From Gemmata massiliana (GTDB lineage: Bacteria > Planctomycetota > Planctomycetia > Gemmatales > Gemmataceae), in contig HG799466.1 of the NCBI GenBank assembly GCA_000531095.1, forward strand, positions 600,661 to 664,660: 64,000 nt of DNA, written 5' to 3'. Below, in pieces: positions 3,357 to 62,127 of this stretch. The translations under genes and the position numbers were made by a program. The notes beneath the pieces are model-generated. The model made no database searches. It was not told the origin of the DNA and saw only the letters and a list, made by a program, of their open reading frames with translations. Every line of letters begins with the position of its first letter. The stretch's first letter is position 1.

Positions 3357-6300
3357 CTACTTCGCCAGTTCCTTATCCAAGTACACAGTAACCTTCTCGG
3401 CCCACAGTTTACCGTGCGCCTTTAACCCCTTGGGGCTGAAGTGAATCCCCTTCCCGCCCTCGTCGCGGTTGTCGCCGGTAAGCGTGTCGGTGTCCGGCCC
3501 CTCCAGTGCGATCCCGCTGTCCCACAACTTCTTCTGCCCCGCACGCGAGTTCTCGAACCGGACCTGGTTGGGGTTGTGGTACGAGACTTGCGCCACGAAC
3601 CACGGTACCTCCCAACCGGCTACTTTGCGAGTTTCCCGGATCAGGTCCGTCATTTTGCGAGTGTATTCCTCGGGGGGCATGCCCACGTCCGATTCGCCCT
3701 GGTGCCATAGCACCGCACGGAACCCGTTCGGCCCGAGTTGGGTCATGCGCCCCGCCGTCCAACGACACAGTTCCCCGCCCGGCCCCCACTGGTTGACGCT
3801 CGTGCCCGAGTGTCCGGTCGACGCGATCCCGATGGGAACCTGATACTCCTCGAACATCGCGTCGCCGAACGCCGGCCAGTAGCTCCCGCCAGAAGTGTTG
3901 TCGTGAACGCCCGGTTGCGGGTCGTCCCCGATCTGCCAACCGGTTCCACTGAACGAGGACACCATCCCGGACTTCTGCTGAATCCGTTCCTGACCGCAGT
4001 TGGTGGAGTTCGACTGCCCCGCACCGACGAACACTTCACCGATACCCACGTGGTCGACGGCCATCTCGCCGACAACCTTACCGTCCTTCAGGGCACGAGC
4101 CTCGACCTTGTACCACCCTCCGGCTGGTGCGGGGATCGTGGCCTCAAAGGACCGTGCCTTGTCCGCGACCGGGATCTCGCGCCATTGATCGGGCAGTGTG
4201 CCCTGGAGCGGTTTGCCCGTCGTGCGCAGTTCCAGGCGATCGTAGGCCGAGCGCATTCGCCCGCGCACGACCATCGCGCCTTGGAGCTTGGTCTTCCGCT
4301 GATACACCTGATAATCCGCCGGCGAATCGAGCGTCAAATCGGTCGCGAGTGCAGGTTTGGCCCCCGTGAGGTCACCGAGTTTGCCCGCTTCGGCTGCGTC
4401 CGTCAGCCCGAGTTCGACGGTGATGACGCGCTTCTCCTTGGGAGCGAGAGACGCTTCCCAAACCTGATACTTCCCCTCCCACGGTCCCCATACCTTGCTC
4501 CCGCCGGTGAACTTCATTTTGGCTCGCCCCGCGAACCAAGTCGTGGTCCCCCACCCCGCCCCTTCGGGAGTCCCGGCGTCCTTGGATAGAGGCGTTTTAA
4601 CCCACTCGTCCTTCTCGTTCCGCACACCTGTAACCGACGTGTCCATCACCACGAAGAACGGCATGCCCTGGTCGGACCGGTTCTCAACCGTCCAGGTCAT
4701 CTTGTTCGGGAAGAAGTCGTACTGAACCGCGGCCTTATCGCACTGAGCCGTGATTGTCGTGGGAGAAGGTTGTTTGATGTCGAACGGTAGCGGGTACCCC
4801 GGCAGGAAGTACACACCGCGCGAGACGTTGATGTTGGCCTTCAGCACCTCGACCCCGTCGATTTTGATGCTGGGCATGCACCCGTCCGAGTCGACCGTCG
4901 CCTCGTACAGTTCGGTCTGAACGACGCGCGCCGGGCCGGACCGCGACACGATCACCGCTCCCGGAGTCAGTACGGGCTTCGGCACCTCGGCGCTGATGAT
5001 CGGTTCCAGCGTGAACTGCACGCGGTTGTAGGTCTTCGCGGTGCTCTCCCAGACCTGCGACCGGAACTCCGAGAACGGCCCCCAAAGCTTCGCGCGGCGT
5101 CTTCGGTCTGATCAGTCACCTTCACTGCCGCGCGCCCGGATAACCAAGTGGTCGTGCGCCACTTCGGGTCGAGCGGATCAGCGGGAGACCGCGACGCGGG
5201 TACCGAAAGCTGTTCGCCCTTCTCGTTCGCGACGTCGTAAACGGAACTCGAATCGAAGAGCAAGTAGTACGGCACGGTGTCGTCGGTCGCGTTGTTCGCC
5301 GTGACAGTAAGCCCGTTCGGAGTGAACTCGTAGCGAACGGTAAACGATCCGTTCTTCGCTTCGACAACGTTGGCCGAGGGCTGCTGAATTTCGGTCAACT
5401 TGACCAGCCCCTGGTGCCCGGCCTTCTCGTAGTAGAAGTACCCGCCCTGTGCCACCGTCCGGCCGCCCGATAGGGACGCCCCCGTTCGGAGGAACTCGAC
5501 CCCTGCGACCCGGAAACTACTGAGATTGCCGTCCGATTTGCTAATCAGCGCGTCGTATTTGGCTGCCTGAATGCGCAGCCCGTCAGCCCCGGAAGTGATG
5601 GTCACCTTCGGGTTGGCACGCGGCGGGTTCGGTACGCTGGGATTCCCTTGCGTGCCGGTACCCGGTGTTCCGTTATCCGGCCCCGGTGTTGGCGCGACGG
5701 GACCGGGCGTGGGATCGGTTCGCGGCCCCTGCGCGACTTGTTGTTTAGACGGTGGCCATAGTGCGTAACCGACGGCCCCGGCGATCCCGATCAGCGCCAG
5801 CGCAGCGACGCCGATCCATTTGCCCCCGGACCGGCGCTTGACGAGAACCGGCTCTTCCACAGCCGCAGCCGGTTTGGGCGTGCGTTTGGTGCGCTTGGTC
5901 GCGGCCTCGGCGAGCGTCGCCCGCAACCGAGCGGCACTGTCCTGATCGCTCGCGGAGATCCCGACGACGACCTTCTGCTCGCTGGCATCGGACAACCACG
6001 GCGCGAGCGCCGCGATCACCTCACCCGGGTTCTGGAACCGGTCCTCGGGCTTCTTCGCCAGCATCTTGGAAACGATTTGAGCCAGTTCCGGCGGGAACGT
6101 CCGGTCCTCCGCGGAGAGATCCGGCGGCGGCTTCATCTGGTGCTGCGCGAGTTTCTGCGAGGTCGTGCCTGTAAACGGCGGGCGACCGGTGACGAGTGCG
6201 TAGAACGTCGCTCCGAGGCTGTAAATATCGGCCCGGACGTCGATCTCACCCTCGCCGAGTGCCTGTTCGGGCGCGAGAAAATCGACGGTGCCGACGATCG

Positions 6301-54618: not shown

Positions 54619-56745
54619 GTGAACCACGGACCGCGCCGATTACCCCGAATCCCGGCTCTCAGCCCGACCGGTCCACCGGTCGACGCGGACCTGCTCGCGC
54701 GGTTCATCAGCACGGGCGACGAGGTCGCGTTCGAGCTACTCGTCCGCCGGCACGCACCGATGGTCCTCGCGGTCTGCCGCCGCGTGCTCACGGACCCGAA
54801 CGACGCCGACGATGCGTTCCAGGCCACGTTCCTGGTGCTCGCGCGCAAGGCGGCCTCGGTTGCGCGGGCGGAAGTGCTCGCAGGGTGGCTCTACCGGATC
54901 GCGTACCGGGCCGCGGTTCGGGTCCGTTCGGACCGACTCCGCCGCGCGACGCACACGGACGCGAACCCCGACCTTCTCCCCGCCCCATCAACTGACCCGA
55001 ACGCGCAAGAACTGGAGCGCGTGCTGGACGAAGAAGTCGCGAAGTTACCGGAGCGGCACCGGGTCGCGTTCGTCCTCTGCTGTTTGGAAGGTAAAACCGG
55101 CGAAGAAGCGGGGCGCCTGATCGGGTGCCCGCCCGGAACCGTCTCCTCGCGATTGACACGCGCACGCGAGCGCCTCCGGGAGCGCCTGACCCACCGGGGG
55201 TTCGCTCCGGCACTCGTCGTCACCGTGCTGAGTGCGTGCGCCGAAAGCGCGGCGACCGTGTCCGCACTGACCGCACTCATTGATTCCACCGTTCACGCTG
55301 CGCCCGGTTTCGCAACCCGGCGCCCAACAGCCCCGCTCACCGCTCGACCCGCCACGATCGCGGAAGGAGTGATCCGAACCATGAACGCGACCAAGCTCAA
55401 ATCCCTCGCTCTCTTGTTTGCCCTGGGTCTTCTCGCGGTCGGCGGCGTGTTCGCCGCACCGAACGCGGACCCCAAAGAAGAACCGAATCAACCACCGAAG
55501 GCGAAAGTTGAGGGCGCGCAGAAAACCCCGGCCGCTCCCGTTGTTCGGGTCGTTCAACCGCAACGCGGTGGACTAGACCGAATCTCCAGGCGCACCGGCA
55601 GCGTCGAACCGCTCCAACAAGCCGATTTGTTCGCCGCGACCGCGGGAACGTTGAAGAGGGTCAACGTGAACCTCGGCGATCACGTCAAACGTGGTCAGCT
55701 CCTGGCCGAGATCGACGCGCCGGCGCTCGTTTTGGAAGAGCGCCGGGCGCAGATCGATATTGAACAGGCGAAAAGTTTACTCCACGAAGCCGAAGCCGGC
55801 CTCCCCGCTGCCAGAGCAGTAATCAACACCGCCAAGCTCGTCGTGAAACAGCGCGAAACCGAAGAAGCCGGAGCCAAAGCTGCCCTCGTTATCTGGAAGA
55901 AAAAGTATGAGATGACCGTCAAAATTTCAGGGCCCATTACATCGGACGCTTCTGATGCCGAACTGCGCTTGCGTACAGCCGAAGCCCAATTTGAAGGTGC
56001 GACGGTAGCCGTTGAAAGCGCGAAAAGTGACATCACCGTGAAGCAGAGCAAGCTGCTTCAAGCCGAAGCCAATGTGGGTGCCGCTAAAACCACCATCGAA
56101 GCCGCCCACCTCGCACTGGAAAAAGCCAGGTTCGCATTGGCTCAAACCAAAATCGTGGCCCCGTTCGACGGGGTCGTGACCCGACAGAATGCCTCCACTG
56201 GCGACCACGTGCGCCTCAGTGAACGAGATGCCGACCGAGCATTGTTTACCATCACGCGCGTGGACCGCGTGCGGCTCGTGACAGCGATCCCCGAATCGGA
56301 AGTGGCTCGCGCTACAGTGGGTGTCGTTGCGGTTGTCACGTTTCCCTCGCGGCCCGGGGTACGCATCAGCGAAAAGATCTCGCGGATCGGGTTCGCGGTT
56401 GATCCGAAGACGGCGACGATGCGCGTCGAGGTCGATGTCCCGGCTGCGACCAACGACATCCGACCGGGCATGTTCGGTGAGGTCACGCTGACCCTCGGGA
56501 AAGGGCCGGCGGACGCGCTGCGCGTGCCACTCAGCGCGATTACCGATGGGCCGAAGGAACGGCCCGAAGTTTCACACGGTGTGTACGTGTACCGTGATGG
56601 CAAAGCTCGGCTCACCTTCGTAAAGGTCAGCCAACACAACGAGAAAGAAGTCGAGATCGCATCCGGTCTGACAGCAGACGATCTCGTCGTGGTCGATCCC
56701 AAGGGGTTGGGGTCAAAGCCTGAAGTTGCGGTTCAGCTCGAGTGA
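54619..56745 (+). CDS. ECF sigma factor fused to an HlyD/MFP periplasmic adaptor
   Basis: The 708-residue protein starts at GTG 54619. Sigma region 2 is at about 20-105 (DADLLARFISTGDEVAF; DADDAFQATFLVLARKA; GWLYRIAYRAAVRVR). Region 4 is at about 130-195 (LPERHRVAFVLCCLEGKTGE; PPGTVSSRLTRARERLRE). A hydrophobic segment follows at 259-280. From about 305 it is a membrane-fusion protein: lipoyl half (AGTLKRVNVNLGDHVKRGQL), long coiled coil (about 355-500), second half (IVAPFDGVVTRQNASTGDHV), beta-barrel and membrane-proximal domain. Adaptors of this kind link inner-membrane pumps to TolC-type ducts, two of which are encoded nearby. The coiled-coil part has lower GC than the rest. Residue 255 is an in-frame Met with its own ribosome binding site. 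Confidence 0.9.
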   Translation: MNHGPRRLPRIPALSPTGPPVDADLLARFISTGDEVAFELLVRRHAPMVLAVCRRVLTDPNDADDAFQATFLVLARKAASVARAEVLAGWLYRIAYRAAVRVRSDRLRRATHTDANPDLLPAPSTDPNAQELERVLDEEVAKLPERHRVAFVLCCLEGKTGEEAGRLIGCPPGTVSSRLTRARERLRERLTHRGFAPALVVTVLSACAESAATVSALTALIDSTVHAAPGFATRRPTAPLTARPATIAEGVIRTMNATKLKSLALLFALGLLAVGGVFAAPNADPKEEPNQPPKAKVEGAQKTPAAPVVRVVQPQRGGLDRISRRTGSVEPLQQADLFAATAGTLKRVNVNLGDHVKRGQLLAEIDAPALVLEERRAQIDIEQAKSLLHEAEAGLPAARAVINTAKLVVKQRETEEAGAKAALVIWKKKYEMTVKISGPITSDASDAELRLRTAEAQFEGATVAVESAKSDITVKQSKLLQAEANVGAAKTTIEAAHLALEKARFALAQTKIVAPFDGVVTRQNASTGDHVRLSERDADRALFTITRVDRVRLVTAIPESEVARATVGVVAVVTFPSRPGVRISEKISRIGFAVDPKTATMRVEVDVPAATNDIRPGMFGEVTLTLGKGPADALRVPLSAITDGPKERPEVSHGVYVYRDGKARLTFVKVSQHNEKEVEIASGLTADDLVVVDPKGLGSKPEVAVQLE
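55362..55383 (+). promoter_or_regulatory. Internal Shine-Dalgarno and in-frame ATG in the sigma-HlyD gene
   Basis: GGAAGGAG at 55362-55369 precedes ATG 55381 by 11 bases. This ATG is codon 255 and opens MNATKLKSLALLFALGLLAV, a good signal peptide ending GVFA-AP. A product from here would be a normal exported adaptor without the sigma part. The arrangement copies that in the first sigma fusion at 2247-2263. Confidence 0.6.
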
Positions 56746-57430: not shown

Positions 57431-57681
57431 GATGAACCTCGGAAGGCGCGGGGGCGCGAGCGCAAATAAACATCCGTACCCTACCCCAGAGGCGGGGCTC
57501 GCGTCTACCCCAGCCGGAAAAGAACGGTTCGGCGAGCGGCGGTCCGGGTGCGCTGCGGTGCGGCCAACCAAAGTTCTAACGCCGCGAGGGGAAGGGCCGC
57601 TACCCCTGAGAATCACTTCAAACGGGGCCGGATCGTTGAAATTGCCGGTCGGCGGGAGTAGAATGACTGGGCAAATCGCCA

Positions 57682-57732
57682 CACGCCGGGACGACCCGAC
57701 GTTTTCCAACTCTTCGGTAGGGACGACCCACC
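57682..57732 (+). promoter_or_regulatory. Guanidine-II (mini-ykkC) riboswitch
   Basis: Two hairpins with the diagnostic ACGR loop lie in tandem: GGG-ACGA-CCC at 57688-57697 (stem extended by C87-G98 and, past a mismatch, ACG/CGT) and GGG-ACGA-CCC at 57720-57729 (extended by GGU/ACC with one bulge). They are 22 bases apart, within the family's usual spacing. Downstream, TAACGC (57735-57740) and GCGTTA (57748-57753) can form a stem that holds the AAAGG ribosome binding site in its loop. The gene that follows is a Gdx/SugE exporter, the expected target. Guanidinium would promote pairing of the two loops and raise expression. Confidence 0.88.
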
Positions 57733-57752
57733 ACTAACGCCAAAGGTGCGTT

Positions 57753-58070
57753 ATGGCTTGGGTATACCTTCTCATCGCAGCCATTTTTGAGATCTGCTGG
57801 GCCGTCGGCCTGAAATACACGCAGGGCTTCACGAAGCTCTGGCCGAGTGTACTGACCGTCACCGCGATGGCGGTGAGCTTCGCGTTCCTGTCACTGGCCG
57901 TTCGGACCATTCCGATCGGCACGGGGTACGTCGTCTGGACGGGCATCGGTGCCGTCGGAACGGCCATCCTCGGCATCATCCTGTTCAGTGAACCGATCAC
58001 CGCTTGGCGTGCTCTCTTTTTACTGCTCATCGTGAGCGGAGTCGTGGGGCTCAAATTCACCGCCCACTGA
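57753..58070 (+). CDS. sugE: Guanidinium exporter, SMR family (Gdx/SugE)
   Basis: This 105-residue protein has four membrane segments and the small multidrug resistance layout with the essential Glu13 (AIFEICWAVGLKYTQGFTKL). The GLKYTQGFTKLWPS segment and the closing VSGVVGLKFTAH are typical of the SugE/Gdx branch, which exports guanidinium in exchange for protons, rather than the EmrE branch. The mini-ykkC riboswitch directly upstream supports the substrate. It works as an antiparallel dimer in the inner membrane. The phosphatase-like gene starts 34 bases after its stop and may be co-transcribed. Confidence 0.93.
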   Translation: MAWVYLLIAAIFEICWAVGLKYTQGFTKLWPSVLTVTAMAVSFAFLSLAVRTIPIGTGYVVWTGIGAVGTAILGIILFSEPITAWRALFLLLIVSGVVGLKFTAH

Positions 58071-58104
58071 ACTCCACGAACTCACGTCGGGTTGGAGTAC
58101 GGAG

Positions 58105-58605
58105 ATGACGGACCAAACGGATGGTGCCAGTTTTGGCTGTAACTGGATCTCGCTCGGAAATGGGCGCCTCACGCTCTGGCACCGGCCCGGAGCGAGGGCC
58201 GTATCGCAGTTGAAGGCCTTTGGTTGCGACTGCATTCTGACCCTGCTGTCGCACCGGGAGGGAGCCCCCGCGGTCGGCAAACTGGCCGAACTCGCGGGCC
58301 TCGAATGGGTGTGGCTCCCACTTGAAAACGGACAGCCCCCGCGCGGGAGCGCTGCCGAATCCATCTTGTTGGCGTTGCCGGCTCTCGCCGAGCGCCTCAA
58401 CGCGGGGCGCTCGATTCTCGTCCACTGTTCGGCCGGTATTCACCGAACTGGGATGGTCGCGTATGCGCTGTTGCGCTGGTACGGTCACGACGAAGATCGC
58501 GCGTTGGCGATTATTGGCGAAATGAGAGCGCACACGGGGTCGGGTATCCAGCGGAAGCAAATCGACTGGGGGAATGAAACTGCCCCCCTTGGCTCCCGTG
58601 TGTGA
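58105..58605 (+). CDS. Dual-specificity/tyrosine phosphatase-like protein
   Basis: The 166-residue protein has the CX5R active site of cysteine phosphatases: VHCSAGIHRTGMVAYALL, with Cys108 and Arg114. The preceding part, LTLLSHREGAPAVGKLAEL and LEWVWLPLENGQPP, fits the variable loop region of DSP-type enzymes. No signal peptide is present. The usual general acid Asp in a WPD-type loop is not obvious; the acid may be the Glu in LENGQ. It follows the guanidinium exporter on the same strand, but a functional link is not apparent. Confidence 0.82.
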   Translation: MTDQTDGASFGCNWISLGNGRLTLWHRPGARAVSQLKAFGCDCILTLLSHREGAPAVGKLAELAGLEWVWLPLENGQPPRGSAAESILLALPALAERLNAGRSILVHCSAGIHRTGMVAYALLRWYGHDEDRALAIIGEMRAHTGSGIQRKQIDWGNETAPLGSRV

Positions 58606-60859: not shown

Positions 60860-61059
60860 GCTGCCTCCTGCAACCGCACCCGTAGCACCGGGTAACTCGT
60901 CCGTGATGCTAAGGAACTATAGCCGTGTTATGGCCGGCTCGCAAGAACGGCCCCCAGCAGAATCGTTCTGTTGGGCAAGAAATTCCTAAGTTTCGCGCGG
61001 AATTAAAACATACCCGTAGCGTTTCGACATCGCCTGAAAATCCCCCTTACGGTCGCACG

Positions 61060-62127
61060 ATGACGGTACCGACACCCCTCGATAAACCCGCTGCACACGG
61101 ATACCGAATGCCCGCAGAATGGGAGCCGCACGCGGCCACCTGGCTCGGGTGGCCGCACCGCGAATCCGACTGGCCGGGGCGCCTCGAACCGATCCCCTGG
61201 GTGTACGCGGAAATCGTCCGCGCGCTCACTCGGCACGAGACAGTGAACCTGCTCGTCCCCGACGCAAAACACGCAGACTCCGCAGCCGATGTACTTTCGC
61301 GCGCGAACGCGGATATGGGCCGCGTGAAGTTGTGGGAACTGCCCACCGACCGATCCTGGCTGCGCGACTCTGGCCCGATCTTCGTGACCAACGCTGCCGG
61401 CGAGCGCATCGCCCTCGACTGGCGGTTCAACGCCTGGGCCAAGTACCCCGACTGGCAGCGGGACGATCTGGTGCCCGCGTTCGCCGCGCAGAAGCTGAAC
61501 GTGCCGAGTCTGCAACCGACCCACAACGGGCACCGCGTGGTACTCGAAGGCGGGAGCATCGACGTGAACGGGGCCGGATTGCTGCTCACAACGGAAGAGT
61601 GCCTGCTGAGCAAAACGCAGGAGCGCAATCCACCGTTCTCGCGTACCGACTACGAGCAAGTGTTCGCGGACTACCTCGGCGTGAAGAAAGTGCTGTGGCT
61701 GAACCGTGGGATCGTGGGCGACGACACGCACGGGCACATCGACGACCTCGCACGGTTCGTGGGGGCGCGAACCGTTGTGACCGTGGTGGAGACGAACAGC
61801 GCGGACGAGAACTACGCGATCCTCCAAGAGAACCGCGAGCGACTTGAGGCTATGACCGACTTGAACGGCACAAAGCTCGAAGTGGTGCCGCTCCCGATGC
61901 CGCGCCCGCTGATCTTCGATGGCACGCGCCTGCCCGCGAGCTACGCGAACTTCTACATCGCGAACGGCGTGGTGATCGTACCGACGTTCAACGACCCGGC
62001 CGACCGCGTCGCACTGGGCACGCTCGCGGACCTGTTTCCCGGGCGCGAAGTGGTCGGAATTAGCTGCGTCGATCTGGTGTGGGGTTTGGGCACCCTGCAC
62101 TGCATGACGCAGCAAGAACCACTTTGA
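61060..62127 (+). CDS. aguA: Agmatine deiminase family protein
   Basis: ATG 61060 (MTVPTPLDKPAAHGYRMP) is the natural start; upstream codons are intergenic. The 355-residue enzyme has the family's guanidine-modifying fold: EWEPHAATWLGWPHRESDW, TDRSWLRDSGPIFV, LEGGSIDVNGAGLLLTTEEC, IVGDDTHGHIDDLARFV and the C-terminal nucleophile Cys348 in GLGTLHCMTQQEP. It converts agmatine to N-carbamoylputrescine and ammonia on the route to putrescine. No carbamoylputrescine amidase is seen nearby. The closely related peptidylarginine deiminase type cannot be fully excluded, but the motifs fit AguA. A large inverted repeat follows the stop. Confidence 0.92.
   Translation: MTVPTPLDKPAAHGYRMPAEWEPHAATWLGWPHRESDWPGRLEPIPWVYAEIVRALTRHETVNLLVPDAKHADSAADVLSRANADMGRVKLWELPTDRSWLRDSGPIFVTNAAGERIALDWRFNAWAKYPDWQRDDLVPAFAAQKLNVPSLQPTHNGHRVVLEGGSIDVNGAGLLLTTEECLLSKTQERNPPFSRTDYEQVFADYLGVKKVLWLNRGIVGDDTHGHIDDLARFVGARTVVTVVETNSADENYAILQENRERLEAMTDLNGTKLEVVPLPMPRPLIFDGTRLPASYANFYIANGVVIVPTFNDPADRVALGTLADLFPGREVVGISCVDLVWGLGTLHCMTQQEPL

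Follow-up and report, generated by a model that had tools for sequence, protein, structure and literature searches.

A guanidine-II riboswitch aptamer upstream of a Gdx-type exporter gene in Gemmata, with a possible switch that involves the start codon

The window analysed here is the whole stretch of 64,000 nucleotides from Gemmata massiliana. It contains an exporter gene whose start codon is preceded by three short hairpins. Two of these resemble a known riboswitch aptamer and the third carries the ribosome-binding site. The features are the following:

57636-57664, + strand: putative sigma-70-type promoter, TTGAAA-17-TAGAAT (10/12 matches; one such site found, mean in shuffles 0.2)
57683-57702, + strand: P1 hairpin of the guanidine-II aptamer, ACG-C-CGGG ACGA CCCG-A-CGU, with one C/A mismatch (motif, RF01068, covariation)
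57703-57715, + strand: P1-P2 linker, predicted without pairing to the ribosome-binding site (Shine-Dalgarno to upstream 0.00, L001)
57716-57732, + strand: P2 hairpin, GGU-(A57719 bulge)-GGG ACGA CCC-ACC (motif, RF01068, covariation)
57726-57763, + strand: predicted OFF hairpin, 57726-57733 with 57754-57763 plus U57735-A57753, stacked on P3 (from folding only)
57736-57752, + strand: P3 hairpin, AACGC-CAAAGGU-GCGUU, whose last base directly precedes the ATG (stem score, tail permutation)
57742-57746, + strand: ribosome-binding site AAAGG, located in the loop of P3 and 6 nt from the ATG
57753-58070, + strand: gdx/sugE, probable SMR-family guanidinium exporter, 105 aa (PF00893, NF008512, PDB 6wk5, residues)

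P2 is composed of G57716-G57717-U57718, the excluded A57719, G57720-57722, the loop 57723-57726, C57727-57729 and A57730-C57731-C57732. A check showed that every pair given for P1 (apart from the C/A mismatch), P2, P3 and the predicted OFF hairpin is standard.

The product of 57753-58070 is an SMR protein (PF00893, 104 bits) that misses the cut-off of the SugE equivalog NF008512 (124 vs 126 bits). Its residues 1-104 match, without gaps, the SMR chain of PDB 6wk5 (E 1.4e-34), which we take to be Gdx-Clo. The residue set for the Gdx subtype of SMR exporters was taken from PMC7695847, where W16 is kept in Gdx and is glycine or alanine in Qac proteins; E13, W16, S42, Y59 and W62 are all present here. 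The gapless alignment and these residues link the protein to Gdx-Clo and other Gdx exporters, and we saw no difference in sequence. The family match, the alignment and the residues thus support a Gdx-subtype guanidinium exporter, the identity that had been suggested from the letters of the DNA. The genome contains two more SMR matches besides this gene.

The earlier note had described two GGG-ACGA-CCC hairpins, 22 bases apart, in front of a Gdx/SugE gene, and had assigned them to the guanidine-II (mini-ykkC) class. Both statements were borne out. The core GGGACGACCC occurs twice (57688-57697 and 57720-57729) with a spacing of 22 bases, and a covariance-model search of the window with the Rfam library detected RF01068 (Guanidine-II) at 57683-57731 on the + strand, with 32.5 bits compared to a gathering cut-off of 32. 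This is the single Rfam match over cut-off in the window (E-value 0.011 for the window against 4227 families). Across the 9.27-Mb genome, no other RF01068 match lies over cut-off or at E <= 0.001 (E 3.7e-4 for this one); a further match (24.3 bits, E 0.035) lies under the cut-off. The score is marginal, 0.5 bits above the cut-off with mismatches marked at P2, because P2 has the bulged A57719, and in the two nearest relatives the equivalent element falls under the cut-off (G400, 26.4 bits; G402, 26.1 bits). The two hairpins have ACGR-type loops and covarying stems, and the gene that adjoins them, the gdx ORF at 57753-58070, is one of guanidine transport; the second hairpin ends 20 nt before its ATG. 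Judged by sequence, we conclude that the element at 57683-57731 is a guanidine-II riboswitch aptamer that is ordinary for its class. The stretch marked earlier encloses the aptamer and the third stem as stated, but its end at 57753 is already the A of the ATG. Guanidine-I and DUF1989 were considered as well and rejected for this genome: neither the Guanidine-I riboswitch RF00442 (covariance model, E <= 0.1) nor DUF1989 (PF09347), the family of carboxyguanidine deaminase, has a match there.

Covariation was assessed in 27/28 distinct planctomycete leaders; L068 was omitted because its P1-P2 spacing is 113 nt. In these leaders, 83.9% of the P1/P2 stem cells are paired, two-sided change affects 53 cells compared to 23.6 in shuffles, and the covariation score is 0.375 compared to 0.175, a value reached by 0/500 shuffles. 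The number of pairs with two-sided change shows no excess in the 27 leaders (9 vs 7.9 in shuffles; 141/500 reach it). Sliding the stem partners lowers every measure bar one tie, and an earlier hand-picked set of 16/28 leaders was 86.6% paired (0/500 shuffles). Thus, the covariation whose absence had been named as refuting is found for P1 and P2.

Over-cut-off RF01068 matches occur in 22/392 genomes of the phylum, 10/95 of the family and 28/397 of the class, where the sets overlap and not each match is a real element. A two-hairpin leader is present at 14/30 gdx-like loci of Gemmataceae among the matches listed, 12 found by a strict pattern and two by eye (L063, where one P1 base is changed, and L068). 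In L068 (G480:C693), P1 lies 144 nt and P2 31 nt before the ATG, with the loops 113 nt apart compared to the usual ~32, which is a natural test of the permissible hairpin separation. Alternatively, two GACGACC motifs might have come to lie side by side by chance, the genome being GC-rich, and not serve sensing at all; the score exceeds the cut-off only slightly, and a proline-rich repeat gene (G493) is among the over-cut-off matches elsewhere in the class. The position before a Gdx gene, the like arrangement at the 14/30 family loci among the matches listed and the stem covariation argue against this explanation, which we consider extremely improbable. In the G493 case, three RF01068 matches, two of them over cut-off, lie inside a proline-rich repeat reading frame (L103, G493:C10, 1000-1900), and these are likely false positives of a short model in GC-rich repeats.

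To compare leaders, we merged those with identical last 40 bases and kept only leaders with a P2 motif no more than 45 nt from the start, which resulted in 14 Gemmataceae, 14 other planctomycete and 46 other leaders. The 46 are named non-planctomycetes, including several near-identical Pseudomonas, plus an unassigned bacterium (L186); judged from their names, we take them to be mostly proteobacterial. They stem from among the matches listed in a scan that demanded two perfect GGGACGACCC cores, and are for both reasons no fair sample of the class. Furthermore, test values overstate independence because the leaders are related.

The putative promoter suggests a transcript start near 57670-57673, about 10 nt before P1, and TAGAAT or TAAAAT stands 27-33 nt before the P1 loop in 8/14 Gemmataceae leaders (L068 could not be scanned). 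A transcriptional model with a terminator was rejected, as no terminator-like site was found in 57560-58120. The control of gdx is thus most likely translational, as is reported for the guanidine-II class (PMC12186494 and PMC9561414).

The third stem with the ribosome-binding site in its loop, also claimed earlier, proved to be common in the family. The stretch AAGGTG gives -3.9 kcal/mol against the 16S tail motif. A gapless stem near the ATG with a score >= 10 was found in 13/14 Gemmataceae, 5/14 other planctomycete and, among the matches listed, 14/46 non-planctomycete leaders (Fisher 3.9e-5 for Gemmataceae against the 46, with related leaders and the 46 taken from among the matches listed), and the ribosome-binding core lies inside the loop in 11/14 Gemmataceae leaders (exceptions: L034, L036 and L042). 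The stems vary in a compensatory manner across species (AACGC/GCGUU, AGCGC/GCGUU, GACG/CGUC, GCACGC/GCGUGU), and L021, outside Gemmataceae, has GACGC/GCGUC. P3 was scored by script; alignments could not place its 5' strand because the loop length varies. When the 3' tails of 14 distinct leaders (13 from Gemmataceae plus L021 from another family; fitted stems and related sequences) were permuted, the observed mean stem score was never reached in 3000 trials. Shuffles of single leaders were beaten at 0.05 by only 2/14 Gemmataceae stems. A pseudoknot between the P3 loop and an upstream ACC was spotted by eye.

The recurrence of the stem in 13/14 leaders and the result of the tail permutation, despite fitted stems and related sequences, are what would be expected if P3 itself controlled translation, with the loop-held site damping it and the ligand acting indirectly through stacking or transcript stability. 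However, the stem is weak in the window (-4.0 kcal/mol), few single-leader shuffles are beaten, and P3 (57736-57752) does not overlap P2 (57716-57732); thus, it cannot alone be the switch or the exclusive partner. We therefore regard control by P3 itself as quite unlikely.

Folding predicts a partner for P2 at the start codon. The strand ACCCACCA (57726-57733; the last loop base, the P2 3' strand and the next base) is predicted to pair with UGG at 57754-57756 and UGGGU at 57759-57763, in a hairpin that stacks on P3 and leaves no ATG base unpaired. In the window, the energies are -15.9 kcal/mol for this OFF hairpin with P3, -7.4 for P2 and -4.0 for P3. For whole folds, the OFF structure reaches -31.1 compared to -28.6 kcal/mol with P1 and P2 kept, and is thus favoured by 2.5 kcal/mol, or by 3.4 kcal/mol with a longer 5' end. 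Pairing of the P2 3' strand with the coding start exceeds 0.3 in 10/14 Gemmataceae, 3/14 other planctomycete and, among the matches listed, 7/46 other leaders (Fisher 1.5e-4 for Gemmataceae against others, related leaders). The mean of this pairing drops from 0.57 to 0.18 with the starts of 16 family SMR genes that lack the two-hairpin leader (among these, L080 has a single similar core and L079 appears to start at ACG), to 0.10 with sampled starts from other groups and to 0.15 with the own codons reordered. The pairing is also seen in leaders of Caulobacter (two), Hyphomonas and Azospirillum, which may have reached it independently. Two leaders from Caulobacter sp. MAGs (L149 and L210) combine it with a hairpin that holds the ribosome-binding site in its loop, possibly a convergence with planctomycetes.

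A different distribution is seen for leaders whose ribosome-binding site is predicted to pair with upstream sequence or P2: 3/14 Gemmataceae, 5/14 other planctomycete and, among the matches listed, 31/46 other leaders (Fisher 0.004 for Gemmataceae against others, related leaders). Such pairing belongs to the platform that is usual for the class, where the P1-P2 linker, the 5' flank (P0 helix) or P2 blocks the ribosome-binding site or start when no ligand is bound, as modelled for Pseudomonas aeruginosa and Gloeobacter (PMC9561414 and PMC5486947). The window could work in this way too, as its 5' flank forms a GCCA/UGGC helix with the start codon when P1 and P2 are kept. This helix, however, sits in the ligand-type fold, the opposite of what an ON switch needs, and in the window the ribosome-binding site has a pairing of 0.00 with upstream sequence or P2. 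We consider the usual platform rather unlikely here. The linker as an anti-Shine-Dalgarno sequence was rejected for the window, also with a pairing of 0.00.

In the guanidine-II class, guanidinium binds in both ACGA loops and keeps P1 and P2 together. We tentatively favour, with a little less than even confidence, a guanidine-II riboswitch that raises translation of the guanidinium exporter because P2 and the paired start region would exclude each other. With guanidinium in both loops, P1 and P2 would stay together. When the ligand is absent, P2 would open and 57726-57733 would pair with 57754-57763 in the start codon and the three codons after it, which would extend P3 into a single long hairpin with all ATG bases paired. 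When it is present, P2 would retain 57726-57733 and the start region would be easier for the ribosome to open. The analysis shows the aptamer sequence with its covariation, the exporter family and P3; the OFF hairpin comes from folding alone, and the ON direction and the translational mode are what we infer. More doubtful, yet possible, is the extension of this model to the guanidine-II elements of Gemmataceae in general. There, the P2 3' strand would serve as an anti-start strand by pairing with AUG and with the codons of M-A-W-V, the gene's own first codons would be part of the switch, and P3 would carry the ribosome-binding site and seed the OFF hairpin.

Several results stand against the OFF hairpin as a switch. 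Synonymous recoding mostly keeps the pairing in the 14 Gemmataceae leaders (window 0.95 vs 0.98) and drops it to <= 0.05 only in L032, L033 and L068; the fit between P2 and the start may thus be incidental, as the peptide M-A-W-V itself supplies the complement. The pairing is <= 0.21 in 4/14 Gemmataceae leaders (L035, L036, L064 and L065). When P2 is locked, the openness of the start codon rises by > 0.1 in only 4/14 Gemmataceae leaders and falls in L032 and L033, with a mean change from 0.35 to 0.42 (window 0.02 to 0.23), and codons 1-4 open by > 0.1 in 6/14; for the 46 others, among the matches listed, such opening is seen in 7 (start codon) and 14 (codons 1-4). This weak release is partly explained by the 5' flank, which then pairs there. 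In the window with P1 and P2 kept, the ATG is still held by U57735 and the 5' flank GCCA (57678-57681), and opening it by force requires 1.1 to 1.6 kcal/mol, according to which 5' end is assumed. A clean release of the start site is not obtained with any of the folding models, which do not cover P1-P2 kissing or the pull of the ribosome. Folding thus gives a reasonable picture of the OFF side but not of the ON side. The earlier note had announced a clear control model outside the best-known groups; the aptamer, exporter, phylum and third stem hold, but 'clear' was overstated.

Compared to the guanidine-II class (mini-ykkC, RF01068; P. aeruginosa, E. coli sugE), the element shares the two short ACGA-loop hairpins, the short linker, the nearby Gdx start and the lack of a visible terminator. 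It differs in the bulged A of P2, the extra hairpin holding the ribosome-binding site and the predicted OFF partner, which is the start-codon region. Guanidine-II riboswitches are reported mostly from Proteobacteria (PMC12186494). In the model proposed for P. aeruginosa and tested with mutants, the Shine-Dalgarno sequence is concealed by a P0 helix (PMC9561414), and in that for Gloeobacter a hairpin overlaps P2 and the ribosome-binding site (PMC5486947). The Gemmata proposal has the exclusion with P2 in common with such models but is directed at the start codon. In translational riboswitches such as Vibrio vulnificus add, the ribosome-binding site and AUG are buried in a sequester hairpin (PMC10907184); the likeness is a start codon paired in an OFF hairpin, which is predicted here. 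Ligand and aptamer differ, and in Gemmata the role of anti-start strand would fall to a strand of P2, a part of the aptamer itself.

In the open full-text literature, we found no paper that joins a guanidine(-II) riboswitch with Planctomycet or Gemmata, which is no proof of a first. The riboswitch class is known and its aptamer ordinary, whereas the platform variant is plausible but unproven. The locus places guanidine-controlled export in Gemmataceae, and if the platform reading is true, one tiny aptamer would be wired to two translation-blocking modes, with protein-coding codons in the switch.

Lastly, we noticed other loci. Within the window, an agmatine deiminase-like ORF (60925-62127, under curated cut-offs) lies ~3 kb downstream of gdx, and a single ORF at 54619-56745 fuses sigma-70 regions 2 and 4 with an HlyD-type membrane-fusion domain. 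In the planctomycete family f15, an over-cut-off guanidine-II match directly precedes a creatininase-family-like hydrolase gene in G113, where a type III glutamine synthetase-like gene comes next (L106, G113:C140, 2-1461), and directly precedes a glutamine synthetase-like gene in G271 (L003, G271:C328, 539-1245, minus strand); hydrolase and synthetase are under curated cut-offs (the synthetase is a fragment). These loci are not the guanidine carboxylase route and possibly represent another way to use guanidine; no paper joining creatininase, guanidine and riboswitch was found in the open literature. In G271, a further match (5186-5230) lies near the start of an ORF that was labelled sugar-isomerase-type by eye; creatininase- and glutamine synthetase-like genes follow downstream in the same orientation (L109, G271:C56, 1567-5230, minus strand). 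Divergent pairs of guanidine-II matches, ~115-310 bases apart, occur in six f15 genomes (L108/L018 in G174, L107 in G060, L017 in G252, L019 in G009, L006 in G129 and L009 in G279), and G113 and G271 carry such pairs too. One match of a pair stands before a urea-transporter-type ABC substrate-binding gene (under cut-off) and the other before UAAP1-like genes, in L108 also with a urea carboxylase-like gene.
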